42,773 nt of DNA, from positions 1 to 42,773 of the forward strand of contig JAFRCG010000006.1 of the NCBI GenBank assembly GCA_017404515.1. Reading direction: 5' to 3'. The notes under the pieces were generated by a model that was given only the letters and a program-made list of their open reading frames with translations, was not told where the DNA came from and did not search any database. The translations under genes and the position numbers were made by a program. The number at the start of each line of letters is the position of its first letter. Position 1 is the stretch's first letter. Positions 1 through 42,691 of the stretch are shown here, piece after piece. This stretch comes from Candidatus Saccharimonadota bacterium. Its GTDB lineage: Bacteria; Patescibacteriota; Saccharimonadia; Saccharimonadales; Saccharimonadaceae.

Positions 1-116
1 ATAGCAGTAAATCTTACTTATTTCATACATCAAACGCTGTCTTATATTCTCAAACTGATCATCTAAAAGATCAGGGTTTCACTCTCCGGTGGTATTTCCT
101 CCTACTCCACCAAATG

Positions 117-317
117 CCCGTCGGTATCCGCTTTCGTATGTAATCTCAGGCCGCTACGACTGGAGCAATGGTAACCTGTACTACCAGGACTCCGTCGGGA
201 ACTGGTGGTCTACCACGGCTTACAGTGGTAGTAACGCGTACAACCTGTACATGAATAGTAGCAGTCTCGGCCCCCAGAGTAATAATACTAAGGCCCACGG
301 GTTTCCTCTCCGCTCCA
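117..317 (+). pseudogene. Cassette 1, lectin-like domain fragment
   Basis: Translates from RRYPLSYV through NWWSTTAYS to GFPLRS, about 66 residues, covering only the last part of a lectin-like domain. The frame is open from a GTG at 89, but that GTG has no ribosome binding site. Beyond GFPLRS the frame runs into the next cassette in a different frame. Asn, Tyr, Ser and Gly at variable positions are nearly all NNY codons. Confidence 0.6.
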
Positions 318-324
318 CCAAATA

Positions 325-526
325 CCCGTCGGTATCCGCTTTCGTATGTACCGTCTGGAGCTTATCGCTGGGCCAGTAGTGGCTTCCTCGGCTGGCAGAA
401 TTCATTTGGCGGTTACTGGTCTACTACAGCTATTAGTAATGATGAAACATACTTCCTAGATATAGGCGACGGCATTTCTAATCCTCGAAATAACGCCCCT
501 AAGTACGACGGACGAACTCTCCGCTG
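325..526 (+). pseudogene. Cassette 2, lectin-like domain fragment
   Basis: Reads RRYPLSYV, then a variable stretch with YWSTTAIS, and ends RTLRCI. It is more diverged from cassette 1 than cassette 3 is. It is out of frame with both neighbours, so the three plus-strand cassettes cannot be read as one protein. Confidence 0.55.
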
Positions 527-547
527 CATCTCCTACTCCACCAAATA

Positions 548-747
548 CCCGTCGGTATCCGCTTTCGTATGTATTGTCAGGCTTCTACGGCTGGGGCGGT
601 GGTAACCTACTCAGCCAGGACTCCGACGGGTTCTGGTGGTCTACCGCAGCCTACAGTGATAGTCGCGCGTACCGCCTGCATGTGAGTAGTGGCGGTCTCG
701 ACCCCCAGAATAACAGTAGTAAGGCCAACGGGTTTGCTCTCCGCTGA
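548..747 (+). pseudogene. Cassette 3, lectin-like domain fragment ending in TGA
   Basis: Reads RRYPLSYV, FWWSTAAYS and GFALR, followed directly by TGA at 745-747 in the loop of the central palindrome. It is the closest relative of cassette 1. Of 27 differing codons between them, 20 keep the same third base (C or T) and change only bases 1 and 2. Confidence 0.6.
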
Positions 748-754
748 CGGAGAG
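737..754. repeat. Central palindrome of the cassette array
   Basis: CTCTCCG (737-743), loop CTGA (744-747), CGGAGAG (748-754): a 7-bp stem with a 4-nt loop at the tail-to-tail junction of cassettes 3 and 4. Its centre at 745.5 is also the symmetry centre of the six core repeats. It could be just the junction of two similar cassette ends, or a cruciform used in target recognition. Confidence 0.75.
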
Positions 755-943
755 GGAAGCCATAGTTTTTGTGATTGCTATTCTGAGGAAGGAGAGAGCT
801 ACTATTCGTAGATAGGCCATAAGCATTGTCATTATCTATTGCGGTAGAGGATCGCCAAATACTATATGCTCCTTGTCCATCTAGAGTACCGCCACTAAGC
901 CAATAGACCCCAGCAAATACATACGAAAGTGGATACCGACGGG
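748..943 (-). pseudogene. Cassette 4, lectin-like domain fragment
   Basis: On the minus strand it reads TRRYPLSYV, IWRSSTAI and GFPLRQ, then runs on antisense to cassette 3. It has one mismatch in the core repeat and more T-ending codons than cassettes 1 and 3, so it is an older or differently derived copy. It is in frame with cassettes 5 and 6. Confidence 0.55.
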
Positions 944-950
944 TAGATAT

Positions 951-1163
951 GGAGCGGAGAGGAAAACCGGCAGCTTTGCCATCTTCGCGCGCTACAAGAC
1001 CACCGTTAATCCCCATTGAATATGCACCAGTTGCGCTGATTGGAGCACTTGTCCACCAAAATCCATAAGTTCCCTGAAAGTCCAACTTGTCATAGCCTCC
1101 ACCCGCTGTAGTATTCCAAAAATACCTACCAGACAATACATACGAAAGCGGATACCGACGGGC
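951..1163 (-). pseudogene. Cassette 5, lectin-like domain fragment
   Basis: Reads ARRYPLSYV, FWWTSAPIS and GFPLRS, in frame with cassettes 4 and 6. It carries a short insertion after the first Tyr-x-Trp compared with the others. Confidence 0.55.
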
Positions 1164-1175
1164 TTGGGTGGAGAC

Positions 1176-1376
1176 GCAGCAGAGAGGTAGACTATAAGTC
1201 TTACTATCGTTACCCTGGGGGACGAGACCACCGCTATGTACACTCAGAAAGTACGCACCTCTGTCACTTTGGGCAGTGGTAGACATACCATACCCAACAG
1301 AACCCTGATTATACAAGTCACCAACACCCCAACTATATGTACCCGAGTATACATACGAAAGCGGATACCGACGGGC
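1176..1376 (-). pseudogene. Cassette 6, lectin-like domain fragment
   Basis: Reads ARRYPLSYV, YGMSTTAQS and LPLCC; the usual WW pair is replaced by GM and the GFPLR end is degraded. Its upstream side runs straight into the MITE-like element, which supplies the open frame before it but no credible start. Confidence 0.55.
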
Positions 1377-1394: not shown

Positions 1395-1535
1395 GGGGGC
1401 CGATAAAACAGGGCTACTAGAGTTTGTAATGAGATTTAGACCAGATTTTGGATTTGTGATTTTTACAATTATCGTTGTAAAAATGAGCAAATCCAAAGTC
1501 CCAAACTCTAGTAGCCTGTTTTATACAAGGCCCCC
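1395..1535. mobile_element. MITE-like palindromic element, copy 1
   Basis: About 141 bp bounded by GGGGGCC and GGCCCCC. Imperfect terminal inverted repeats of about 30 bp contain the arm CTACTAGAGTTTG. Nested inner arms (GGATTTG/CAAATCC and TTTTTACAA/TTGTAAAAA) let the whole element fold into one long hairpin. It is nearly identical (five small differences by eye) to the inverted copy at 30260-30402. It encodes no protein. It could be a non-autonomous transposon or a dispersed bidirectional terminator. Confidence 0.7.
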
Positions 1536-1561
1536 GCTGCATTATGCTAGGATCCGCTTTA

Positions 1562-3271
1562 TTAAATTATGCCTTCAGCAGGTGGGAAATCGTCTTTTTT
1601 GTCGGTATCCTCAGTTTTCACCTCTGGATTCTCAGGAGCAGGATTGGAGCTTTCCGGCATAGATTGTTCAGGCTGCTCAGGCATTGTAGTTTCGTTGGTT
1701 GTATCGGAATTGTCAGGCGTGCTAGGCGTTTCTGATACCTCTGGTACTTCTGATGTAGCAGGTGTAGTAGACAAGTCAACTGGGCTTTCTGGTGTAGGAG
1801 CAGATGAAGCTGGTTGTGCTGACTGTGTCAGTGTAGGCCCACCTTTCTTGTGTTTCATCTTGACGATAGCAAGTATTATTAGAGCTACGACAATGATTAT
1901 GCCACCACCAATCGCAAAATATCCCCAGACAGGAAATGTGGATTGTGCCGCAGTGGTATCTTCTACTACTGGCTGGATACAATTAGTGCCAGTAGAACCA
2001 ATACAATTTGTCTTTTGGCTATCTGCTAAGAATGATACAGGTGCTTCAGACTGGTTGATAGAAACTTCTTCGCCGCTGACATAAAGTTTGTAGCCATTAG
2101 CGTAAATATTGAGATTATTAGCGTCTCCATTGCTAAGAGAAGTGATATTGCTGTCTTCAGTCAATACTACAATGGAATCTTCTGACAGATTTAAATTTAC
2201 TGTACCATTCCCAGTAAAAGCACCCTTTAGATACGAATGTTTTAGGTCAAGGGTAACAGTAGATATGTTATCGGTCACGATATCGCCAATAATGTTTTGA
2301 TCTTCTGCGTTTAGATTAACTACACCACCATTTGCGCCGGCATTACCCCAGTATCCAGCCTGCGCTCTGAGGAACGCTCCGTTTTTATCATTTTGAACGA
2401 ATTTATTCCCAATCAAATTTATCTCTGCTGTGGTATTCGTAACAAAGAAATGGTCACCAGAGTTAGTGGTAATGATGGAATCTTCAGCTGTGAAAGTTCC
2501 CATTCCTTCCGTTGCGTCCCCACTCATAGATTGATAAATAAAGATGCTCTTGAATGTCTCTGAATGCCCATTATTTTGATTGTTAGTGACGGTCATATTT
2601 ACAGAATCAAGAGAAACTGAATTCATGCCTTCTATCACTACGCCCTCAGAAGTGGTAGAGCTCAATGTAGACTCAGTGACTTTAATATCAGCAGTGGAAT
2701 AAATTGCTGGGCTTCCTACGCCATGGGTGATATAGGTTCCACCAGTAACACTGATTTCTCCGCCCCCTCTGTCACTACGAATCGCTGCAGCAGAATTCCC
2801 AGAGGTTTCTACTGTCAAAGCATCAGCACTGATGGTGCCTCCACCGGCAACCATAATGCCACCAGAATTATTAGAAGAAGTTTCTATAGTAGTGCCAGAG
2901 ATATTTACCACCCCTGTACCATAGGCAAAAACTGCATTTGCGTGTCCGCCATTGGTCTGTACTGTACCGCCATTCATATTAAGCGTTGCACCATTGTAGA
3001 CCAAAATTGCGGCATTTGTACCATAGAAATCTGACTCATCGCCACCATTATCATCGCCAGATTTTACTACCGTAGCATTAACAAGGTCGATTACTCCGCC
3101 CGAGACAAGTAGCGCATTTTGTGCACCAGTAGTGCTCTCGTAAGAAGTACCACTATACTCTCCATCTTCAGAAAAAGTTGTTGCCCCAGAGTAGTTTATA
3201 GATGTTATGGGATTACCCATTGTTGGGGCTCCACCAGGTGCGCCCGATGGCCCAGTTGTTCTTTGTTCCAT
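1562..3271 (-). CDS. Beta-helix repeat surface protein with C-terminal membrane anchor
   Basis: A 569-residue protein. Residues 20-400 are Gly/Asn/Thr/Val-rich strand repeats with motifs such as DFYGTNAAILV, NAVFAYGTG, SDRGGG and GSPAIYSTADI, recognisable as a right-handed beta-helix family common in Firmicutes surface proteins. Two cysteines (423, 431) precede one membrane segment (about 448-470), followed by KMKHKK and a roughly 95-residue Pro/Ser/Thr/Glu tail. By the positive-inside rule the long N-terminus would be outside, yet no N-terminal signal peptide is present. The start is well supported by AGGAGG seven bases ahead of ATG, and an extended -10 (TGTTATACT) lies upstream. Horizontal acquisition with an added anchor is an inference. 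Confidence 0.75.
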   Translation of the reverse strand: MEQRTTGPSGAPGGAPTMGNPITSINYSGATTFSEDGEYSGTSYESTTGAQNALLVSGGVIDLVNATVVKSGDDNGGDESDFYGTNAAILVYNGATLNMNGGTVQTNGGHANAVFAYGTGVVNISGTTIETSSNNSGGIMVAGGGTISADALTVETSGNSAAAIRSDRGGGEISVTGGTYITHGVGSPAIYSTADIKVTESTLSSTTSEGVVIEGMNSVSLDSVNMTVTNNQNNGHSETFKSIFIYQSMSGDATEGMGTFTAEDSIITTNSGDHFFVTNTTAEINLIGNKFVQNDKNGAFLRAQAGYWGNAGANGGVVNLNAEDQNIIGDIVTDNISTVTLDLKHSYLKGAFTGNGTVNLNLSEDSIVVLTEDSNITSLSNGDANNLNIYANGYKLYVSGEEVSINQSEAPVSFLADSQKTNCIGSTGTNCIQPVVEDTTAAQSTFPVWGYFAIGGGIIIVVALIILAIVKMKHKKGGPTLTQSAQPASSAPTPESPVDLSTTPATSEVPEVSETPSTPDNSDTTNETTMPEQPEQSMPESSNPAPENPEVKTEDTDKKDDFPPAEGII

Positions 3272-30228: not shown

Positions 30229-30259
30229 CATAGCACGAAGCGGGTCCTGGCATAGGCAC

Positions 30260-30402
30260 GGGGGTCTTGCATAAAACAGACTACTAGAGTTTGGGACTTT
30301 GGATTTGCTCATTTTTACAACGATAGTTGTAAAAATTACAAATCCAAAATCTGGTCTAAATCTCATTACAAACTCTAGTAGCCCTGTTTTATGCAGGCCC
30401 CC
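30260..30402. mobile_element. MITE-like palindromic element, copy 2
   Basis: 143 bp from GGGGG (30260) to CCCCC (30402), with the same terminal arms (CTACTAGAGTTTG/CAAACTCTAGTAG) and nested inner palindromes as copy 1, in the opposite orientation. It lies between the convergent cysS and AI-2E genes, 32 nt after one stop and 10 nt before the other. Here it may also act as a bidirectional terminator. Confidence 0.7.
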
Positions 30403-40521: not shown

Positions 40522-41652
40522 TTAGCGATCTACTCTGATTGGGAGTAATCCGGCAAGATCCATTTGCTCTAAAGTAACGCGAGTTAGTTCGCTATTCTCG
40601 AAGCTAATTTCATATTCGCGGCCACCTTCACGAGTCGGTTTGATAAGGTTACGATCACGGAGTTTCTTGAGCTGCTGAGCGATAGCAACAGAAGTGACTT
40701 CGCGTCCCCAAAGATCTTTGATATCGTTCGCTTTAATCGTGCTCAAACGAACGGCACGACTGAGAATATTACTTTCTAGCCGAGAAATAATACCAGCCTT
40801 TTCCATACGATCCACGGACGGAAGTAGAATCTTCTTATTTACGAACTCCGCGTCGGCAAGAGATTCAGATTTCTTAATCTCATCACGGACGCCGGAAAGG
40901 AAGTATTCGCACCACTCCAAAATATGCTCATCTTTATAATCATCGGCGAGGGCCAGCATATCATAATACTTATTACGATCGCCGGCGAAAACAGCCGTAG
41001 GGTTAAACAGACGCATTTTATTTGGTACGATATAACCCTTCTTACAAAGAAGTGCGTAGGTCATAAGCCTGTCGGTACGACCATTGCCGTTACCGAATGG
41101 GTGGATCCAGACAAAACGATGGTTGGCGATCGCGATTTTAAGTAGATCATACTGCTCGCCATCGTCACTATTAATATAATCTATCAGTTCACGCATAAGA
41201 TCCGGAACATCGTATGGCTCTGGTGGCTGGTGCTTCGCATTTGCGATAAAGCGAGGCTCATCGCGCCAGGCACCGGCACGCTTATCACCCTCATGAGTCA
41301 GACCACCTACTACAACCCGATGGAGCTCTTTGATGAAATCGGCCGAAATAGGCTCGTCCATTACATACTTGTCGATAAAATCTAGGCCAGAAATCAAGTT
41401 GGAGATCTCTACAATCTGCTCGTCATTCTTGTAGCTTTTATCATCACGCTTCTCGATATAAGAAGCAATCGTGGTATGGTTACCCTCAATGCGCGCAGAA
41501 GCAACAGCTTCCACTGCGTGGAGTAGGCTCTTAAGCTGCAAAAAGACGCTCTCGCTCGTGGTATTTTTGAGTGGACGATTTTTGAGATGCTCTAGCTCAA
41601 GAATGATATTTGTGAGGCCAGAGTCAAATTTAGGGGTAGGTGTATTAATCAT
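40522..41652 (-). CDS. Fic/DOC domain AMP-transferase-like protein
   Basis: A 376-residue protein. The Fic motif HPFGNGNGRTDR (184-195) is complete, so AMPylation or a related NMP transfer is expected. The auto-inhibitory motif SARIEG (52-57, [ST]xxxE[GN]) lies in an N-terminal helix, making it a class II Fic. An N-terminal Fic_N-like region and a C-terminal winged helix (about 280-365, VTSVAIAQQLKKLRDRNLIKPTREGG) complete the common bacterial Fic-wHTH layout. GGAGA precedes the ATG. Four 12-bp repeats lie directly upstream, which the winged helix could bind. Codon use differs from the core genes. Confidence 0.93.
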   Translation of the reverse strand: MINTPTPKFDSGLTNIILELEHLKNRPLKNTTSESVFLQLKSLLHAVEAVASARIEGNHTTIASYIEKRDDKSYKNDEQIVEISNLISGLDFIDKYVMDEPISADFIKELHRVVVGGLTHEGDKRAGAWRDEPRFIANAKHQPPEPYDVPDLMRELIDYINSDDGEQYDLLKIAIANHRFVWIHPFGNGNGRTDRLMTYALLCKKGYIVPNKMRLFNPTAVFAGDRNKYYDMLALADDYKDEHILEWCEYFLSGVRDEIKKSESLADAEFVNKKILLPSVDRMEKAGIISRLESNILSRAVRLSTIKANDIKDLWGREVTSVAIAQQLKKLRDRNLIKPTREGGREYEISFENSELTRVTLEQMDLAGLLPIRVDR

Positions 41653-41689
41653 AATAATTCTCCTATAATTATTCTACCATAAAAGGCAA

Positions 41690-41783
41690 ATTATTTAAAG
41701 TTAAGATTTGTAATTATTTAAAGTTGAGATACTACTATAACAGGGGTAATTATTTAAAGTAGCGATTTGGCATTATTTAAAGT
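41690..41783. repeat. Four 12-bp direct repeats upstream of fic
   Basis: ATTATTTAAAGT at 41690-41701, 41713-41724, 41749-41760 and 41772-41783. Start-to-start distances are 23, 36 and 23, so they form two pairs with a shared GATTTG in each spacer. They lie between the recombinase stop and the fic start. They may be operator sites for the fic promoter or arm-type sites of the recombinase. Confidence 0.85.
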
Positions 41784-41785
41784 TG

Positions 41786-42691
41786 CTATGCGTGAATGAC
41801 AGTATGCTTCAGACGATGAATTTGGTGTAGATCCTCATCTACGACGTGAGTATAAGTCATCGTAACTTGAATACTGGCATGGCCGAGAAGCTCTTTCACG
41901 TAAACGATATTGGCGTTGTTCCGAAGCAAATCGGTAGCAAATGAGTGACGAAGCGTATGCGGATGAATATTCTTATCTAAACCAGCCTTGATAGCCGCAT
42001 TTTTAACTACCATTTGTACGACGCCGGGGTTAATTTTCTCACGACCTTTTAGTTGTTCCGAAACGAATAGAGCCGGGTACGGATCATCGCGGAGCGCAAG
42101 GTATTCGTCGATATACTTATGCGTGACAGGATCAATAAAGCAAACGCGAGGCTTATTACCTTTTCCGATGACCGTAAAGCTGTCCACTCCATCTTTGATT
42201 TGTGTACGTTCCATATTACATAGCTCTCCATTGCGAAGACCGGCACTAAACATTAAGGCAATCATAGCTCGATTTCGATAACGCTTAAACCGAGAATATC
42301 CCGGTCCTTTTTGAAACACGGCGTGGAGCATAGCTTCCACCTCTGAAACTTCTAGATAGTCGACTACGCGCGAGTCGCGTTTGGGGATGCCGACAGCTTC
42401 GGCATCTAATACCTCATAACCACGTGCCTTGAGATGCTTCAAAACGACACGAAGTTTCAAGATATAGCCACGAACCGTATTGGAAGTGCGCGTTTTTCTG
42501 AGGTCGGTTGTCCACTTACGGACTTGATCGAACTCTAATTCGGCAACCGGAATGTCGCCAAGAAACGCAACGATAGACTTCATTGCGCATTGGTTCATCT
42601 CCTCAGTTTTGGCTGATTGATTTTTGTAGACAATAACGTCCTTACGATAAAGCTCAAAAGCTTCCGAGAGAGTTAAACTTGGGGTTTTCAT
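41786..42691 (-). CDS. Tyrosine recombinase/integrase (XerC/D-like)
   Basis: A 301-residue protein. An N-terminal SAM-like core-binding domain (about 8-90) precedes the catalytic domain with the full active-site set: R153 in SAGLRNGEL, K177 in VIGKGNK, H245 and R248 in HPHTLRHSFAT, H271 in LLGHASIQVT, and the nucleophile Y280 in MTYTHV. Size fits Xer or a small integrase. AGAAAGGA precedes the ATG. With the broken tRNA gene and fic next door, an integrase of a mobile element is favoured, but a chromosomal Xer role cannot be excluded. Confidence 0.92.
   Translation of the reverse strand: MKTPSLTLSEAFELYRKDVIVYKNQSAKTEEMNQCAMKSIVAFLGDIPVAELEFDQVRKWTTDLRKTRTSNTVRGYILKLRVVLKHLKARGYEVLDAEAVGIPKRDSRVVDYLEVSEVEAMLHAVFQKGPGYSRFKRYRNRAMIALMFSAGLRNGELCNMERTQIKDGVDSFTVIGKGNKPRVCFIDPVTHKYIDEYLALRDDPYPALFVSEQLKGREKINPGVVQMVVKNAAIKAGLDKNIHPHTLRHSFATDLLRNNANIVYVKELLGHASIQVTMTYTHVVDEDLHQIHRLKHTVIHA

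Follow-up and report, generated by a model that had tools for sequence, protein, structure and literature searches.

What purpose may a series of gene ends without start signals, packed on both strands at the edge of a contig, serve in a bacterium with a genome of 0.76 Mb? Such a series (an array) occupies the first 1.4 kb of the window, i.e. the whole analyzed stretch of 42,773 nucleotides, which is the complete contig JAFRCG010000006.1 (C25) of the Candidatus Saccharimonadota bacterium assembly GCA_017404515.1. It comprises three plus-strand and three minus-strand units (cassettes), each starting with the core CCCGTCGGTATCCGCTTTCGTATGT (Table 1), and 20 shuffles of the first 3 kb gave no match to this core at up to 6 mismatches. 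The array is a small part of a large system, whose variation comes from the template of a diversity-generating retroelement (DGR) placed on another contig. The explanation that we favour, with a probability of roughly 0.57, is that it belongs to a dispersed library of silent, in-frame copies of the 3' end of a DGR-targeted surface protein gene of the FISUMP family, which would act as donors for segmental gene conversion.

The window had previously been interpreted from its letters and open reading frames (ORFs) only (the sequence-only reading). The coordinates given there for six cassettes with a shared core, three per strand, were confirmed, and so were the midpoints of the matched cores (746, 743.5 and 745.5). 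The plus-strand copies are, as claimed, out of frame with each other; those of the minus strand are in frame and form an ORF of 281 aa. The conserved core, taken for 20 bp, is actually 25 bp long. The mirror point at 745.5 is the loop of a 7-bp hairpin, CTCTCCG(CTGA)CGGAGAG, made by two tail-to-tail cassettes. The 3+3 symmetry described there is accidental, because the contig end cuts the array and the latter starts inside a partial seventh cassette; other clusters read +----, +--, ++++- and +++++++. The genome-wide extent of the system and its DGR source had gone unnoticed in that reading.

The genome (763,366 bases in 29 contigs, 98% complete, contamination listed as 1.4%) is a short-read-type metagenome assembly, as judged from contig ends sharing 141-mers, and the analysis was based on stretches covering all copies of the core and nearly all contig ends. 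Altogether, 86 copies were found (44 on the plus and 42 on the minus strand; 78 exact over 23 nt), and a reversed-core control gave no match in the whole genome. They form 27 clusters over 20 contigs, and due to this spread contamination was rejected as the source of the cassettes; many contigs end in arrays. A single point at which plus meets minus copies is present in 18 of the 27 clusters, and nearly all such points carry CTCTCCGC...GCGGAGAG. From position -2 to +22 of the core nearly every base is invariant in the 86 copies, third codon positions included, and the glycine codon starting at +30 is GGC in 36, GGT in 25, GGA in 13 and GGG in 10 of them. The core is a DNA-level feature. The motif CTCTCCGC, located at the 3' end, is exact in 66 of 84 cassettes, and the median pairwise identity of cassettes is about 48%. 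The arrays are intergenic and lack start signals; their neighbours are tRNA-Ser and tRNA-Glu genes, terminator-like hairpins, palindromic repeats F1-F3 and, in our reading of the flanks, the stop codons of rpoC- and groL-type genes. A preference for sites between convergent genes was looked for and not seen. The bases -8 to -3 before the 86 cores show recurring types (CCGGTG, 15; CCTTTT, 15; CAAATA, 8; CATCTG, 7), and these 5-6 nt types track neither the upstream nor the downstream cassette.

The translated cassettes follow the pattern RRYPLSYV..SG.Y.W....L..Q....G.WWST.A.S...AY.L...S..L.PQ....KA.GF.LR. Direct Pfam and NCBIfam scans of the window cassettes gave no useful match, and their assignment was made through a whole-genome family search and a gene on contig C13. 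In that search five units weakly matched the last third of Pfam Fib_succ_major; the weak cassette match covers only profile positions 125-186 of 187. The C13 gene (608 aa) spans the whole FISUMP domain (TIGR02145, E 1.7e-9, just under the cut-off; above the Pfam cut-off in the genome search), and no relative of it with a solved structure was found by sequence. On this assignment the cassettes would encode the C-terminal end of a FISUMP domain, for which a lectin-type fold is predicted. Fib_succ_major targets of DGRs are known (PMC4159848) and a lectin-type fold was reported for DGR targets (PMC8144416). Although core and end motif are spaced at ten different distances, 83 of 84 cassettes are in one phase, and 82 of 84 are open in frame 0 (18, 0, 0, 6 and 1 in the other five frames). 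In all assembled arrays no long coding frame enters the cores from upstream, except for read-through from other cassettes. Such retention of the frame in seemingly silent copies is consistent with donors whose sequence passes through an expressed gene. The earlier suggestion that the array stores alternative C-termini of a single variable domain of lectin type is supported by the common phase, the family assignment and the recombination between cassettes described below.

Many cassettes vary at NNC/NNT codons. A template was predicted by writing A at all such variable sites, and its best match in the genome was C29:14085-14258 (99% identity), which adjoins a reverse transcriptase (RT) gene (C29:14484-15203; PF00078 above cut-off, in a 379-aa frame) about 0.2 kb away. 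One strand of C29 carries, in this order, the end of a target gene with the core and a variable repeat (VR), a 313-aa ORF and the RT gene, and the template repeat (TR) lies on the opposite strand. The 313-aa ORF occupies the position of an accessory (Avd) gene and matches no family. When 31 VRs were compared with the template (the end-to-end alignment took in 29 units), mismatches fell on 39.9% of A, 3.9% of C, 7.4% of G and 3.4% of T positions. The VR of the C29 target, which carries the cassette core and 3' end and is in frame to the stop codon, differs from the template at 44% of A and 2% of non-A positions, and many silent copies show similar values (about 40% and 0-5%, respectively). By its anatomy, with an RT next to a template and a TR-VR pair differing at template adenines, the C29 system is a DGR, and it is presumably active. 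About 30 cassettes are template-derived and some 55 have diverged; the latter type includes four window cassettes (2, 4, 5 and 6), with 30-46% non-A mismatch. A second, complete-looking DGR was identified on C13 (stretch L048, 942-5070), composed of the 608-aa FISUMP target, which is a complete gene with the VR at its 3' end, a small accessory ORF, the RT and then the TR on the other strand. Its template closely matches its own gene alone, and this DGR has no silent copies.

Traces of exchange between the copies were also found. When 42 hypervariable adenine sites were compared, three pairs of cassettes had runs of 26, 20 and 14 sites in common, which is beyond anything in 30 column shuffles. 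Cassette C19:8822 is a two-parent mosaic of the 5' part of C16:48771 and the 3' part of C16:4743, and as its breakpoint is internal to the cassette and away from the core, homologous exchange is argued for. Some silent copies possess flanks of the target gene that are lacking in the template: 24 nt (C16:10442) and 19 nt (C16:4743) upstream, and CCCTCTAATTAGCAA downstream (C16:10222 and C5:557). Copy C12:37 shares a 141-base contig end with C29, including the 82 nt upstream of the core; little weight was given to it, since a recent copy and an assembly join are both possible. Several contig ends (C1/C9, C12/C29) have exact 141-mers in common and diverge at a core or close to it; this branching was not used as proof of inversion in the population, since common flanks may equally be repeats.

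The exact core was found neither in IMG/VR nor in 59 other genomes of the genus, and among GTDB r220 species it occurred in one contig only, from the goat-duodenum genome RGIG2326, which is 99.8% identical to C6. The cassette protein matched 112 of 118 genomes of the genus. Stretches fetched from four of them (G022, G062, G030 and G008) contain many short-frame copies, and each family has its own constant 5' segment; in the relatives these segments are about 52 nt long and unrelated in sequence. G062 has three cassette families, with mostly exact constant segments, and G030 has four, which are intermixed in its arrays (L156-L163); there tail-to-tail and head-to-head contacts alternate, and the heads are about 50-80 nt apart. 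The DGR locus of G062 is arranged as on C29 (target, accessory gene, RT, TR), and its target VR, again located where a contig ends, has the silent family's constant segment. An adenine bias was observed in 16 copies of G062 (37.5% of A vs 2-5.5% of C/G/T) and 32 copies of G022 (41.5% vs 5-8%). G031, G034 and G090 show a plain pair, made up of a single VR within a long gene and a single copy resembling a template.

These data suggest the following scenario. The DGR would rewrite the expressed VR at template adenines, as the A-biased VRs and the DGR anatomy imply, and the 3' end of the gene may be copied to intergenic spots, where copies are seen alone, in head-to-tail rows and as tail-to-tail pairs. 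Homology arms would be provided by the 5' core that the cassettes share (25 nt here and about 52 nt in the relatives) and by the common 3' end CTCTCCGC; through these arms cassettes would recombine with each other, as the mosaics indicate, and probably with the expressed gene. Whole or partial variant ends could then be swapped in by segmental gene conversion, in the manner of Anaplasma msp2 or Borrelia vls. Several observations weigh against this scenario: (i) no mosaicism derived from the known silent cassettes was detected in the VR of the C29 target, so conversion into it can only be inferred; (ii) the C29 target gene runs off the contig end 82 nt upstream of the core and, here as in G062, the assembly lacks the N-terminal portion of the expressed gene, so switching itself is no more than proposed; (iii) the sole array present in two assemblies (C6 and the RGIG2326 contig) is unchanged, without differences; (iv) G030 has arrays and no RT in its assembly; and (v) an arm of 25 nt is short for homologous recombination. 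A further step, in which DGR-made variants are copied from the expressed gene into silent cassettes and later redeployed by recombination, would give the retroelement a heritable archive; we propose it tentatively, at somewhat below even odds.

Three other explanations were considered. Mutagenic retrohoming might write straight into any stretch with the 3' motif and a 5' anchor, and the copies would then be rediversified in place with no role as donors. Many silent copies are indeed as fresh as the target VR, TATCCGCTTTCGTATGT of the core is present in the TR, and tail-to-tail copies have a GC-rich hairpin at their 3' end, such as the structure required by the targets of the Bordetella phage DGR (PMC3240598). 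However, CCCGTCGG is absent from the TR, as are the gene-specific 5' and 3' flanks of some copies, and over half of the cassettes do not resemble the TR and nonetheless retain the core and frame. Convergent hairpins were rejected as marks of fresher DGR targets, since the junction cassettes were, by eye, no nearer to the template than the others. Direct rewriting of the copies is considered unlikely. It is more doubtful still that the copies are passive intergenic debris, multiplying uselessly beside palindromic repeats; their intergenic position, the lack of start signals, the frequent bordering by F1-F3 and the absence of a complete expressed gene from the assembly would suit such relics, but the phase and the open frame are kept at about 48% median pairwise identity, the core is invariant amid variable surroundings and several species share the design but not the core.

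The recombinase genes bear on the last alternative. One Xer-type gene is present in nearly all of 22 genomes checked, and it is the only Xer gene in the array-rich G022, G062, G011 and G013. The window encodes a second, 301-aa Xer-like tyrosine recombinase (about 41450-42400, minus strand), directly upstream of a Fic-type gene (376 aa); this recombinase has no counterpart in these four array-bearing genomes. Both tyrosine recombinases fit Xer models far better than integron integrase models, and an integron was rejected. A shufflon, whose tyrosine recombinase would invert or relocate segments at the core and so link a single expressed gene to alternative ends, would agree with the DNA-level invariance of the core, with the inverted cores flanking tail-to-tail ends in 18 clusters (convergence survives inversion between opposed cores) and with the second Xer-like gene, but we consider it the least probable explanation, as no constant gene part lies beside the cores at array edges in the assembly, no dedicated recombinase is linked to the arrays, array-rich relatives have the widespread Xer-type gene only, their constant segments are about 52 nt long and unrelated in sequence, and the exchange breakpoints lie inside cassettes. 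The sequence-only reading had envisaged inversion or gene conversion, like in a shufflon or a vls/pilin system; the second comparison is the better one, and the first is poorly supported.

In Borrelia vls and Neisseria pilS, promoterless cassettes with common ends are located in one or few arrays and give rise to mosaics via segmental exchange. The cassettes described here likewise lack promoters and share their ends; in contrast, mosaics were seen between silent cassettes only, and there are 27 clusters chromosome-wide, with tail-to-tail pairs and a retroelement as the source. The R64 shufflon has alternative C-terminal coding ends placed tail to tail between inverted, nucleotide-conserved sites, and both traits are found here, whereas an adjoining constant gene and an array-tracking recombinase are not, and exchanges occur within cassettes. 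The functional pseudogenes of Anaplasma msp2 (A. phagocytophilum, PMC2789410) also belong to a host-dependent bacterium with a small genome, but there variation is only stored, while here much of it bears the DGR signature, the expression site is unassembled and single-cassette copies measure about 200 bp. The Treponema denticola DGR (PMC4891356) resembles the present system in having one RT and one TR for many VRs, adenine-directed differences and a lectin-type C-terminal domain; its 2-7 VRs, however, are each part of a complete gene, unlike the approximately 30 TR-derived VRs without genes that are mixed here with some 55 diverged ones. DGRs with several VRs (PMC4891356, PMC6642488) and DGRs of the Candidate Phyla Radiation (PMC8144416) are known. 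The "hundreds of VR copies" mentioned in PMC6642488 were not accepted as a precedent, as the examples are adhesin repeats with few A changes. No description of DGRs joined to silent cassette arrays, or of any such system in Saccharibacteria, was found in the open-licence literature.

DGRs and gene conversion from silent cassettes are treated as separate routes to surface-protein diversity. Their presence on one protein, together with about 85 stored ends in 763 kb of genome, suggests that the DGR output can be kept and reused, not overwritten. If so, targeted random mutation and a stored repertoire of earlier variants would be coupled in a 0.76-Mb genome. The design is repeated in several species of the genus, each with cores of its own, and a genome can contain up to four gene families. 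This offers a testable answer to the purpose of Saccharibacteria DGRs, namely adhesion when hosts change, or evasion of hosts or phages. The contig breaks at such loci in the genus may be explained in this way as well, and short-read surveys would then miss the expressed genes.

Table 1 Array features at the start of the window (positions in nucleotides of the window)
Feature	Position	Strand	Remarks
Partial cassette 7 (...SSKSYLFHTSNAVLYSQTDHLKDQGFTLR)	1-88	+	3' end only, truncated by the contig end; protein ...KDQGFTLR
Cassette 1	117-314	+	core 117-141; from the C29 DGR template, mismatch 6% non-A, 31% A
Cassette 2	325-527	+	core 325-349; template-diverged, core and reading phase retained
Cassette 3	548-745	+	core 548-572; from the C29 DGR template, mismatch 3% non-A, 45% A
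Tail-to-tail junction	737-754		inverted repeat CTCTCCG / CGGAGAG, loop 744-747, centre of mirror symmetry
Cassette 4	744-943	-	core 919-943, one mismatch; diverged type
Cassette 5	957-1162	-	core 1138-1162; near-identical to cassette C1:712
Cassette 6	1170-1375	-	core 1351-1375; diverged type
Palindromic repeat F1	1395-1560	-	array border; also beside several other arrays, once solo at 30238-30402

The array is adjoined by a gene (1562-3271, minus strand) encoding a repetitive surface-type protein of 569 aa, which has a membrane segment at its C-terminus. The solo copy of the palindromic repeat F1, also on the minus strand, is intact and has no cassettes; it is 165 nt long and, as RNA, reaches -78.4 kcal/mol (z -11). 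The array-side copies of F1 have an altered end, with TTTTATCGGCCCCC in place of TTTTATGCAGGCCCCC. F2 and F3 are two more families of long palindromic repeats found at array edges (L035, L038, L041, L050 and L051), and F1 and F3 start alike, with AAGCGGGTCCTGGCATG.
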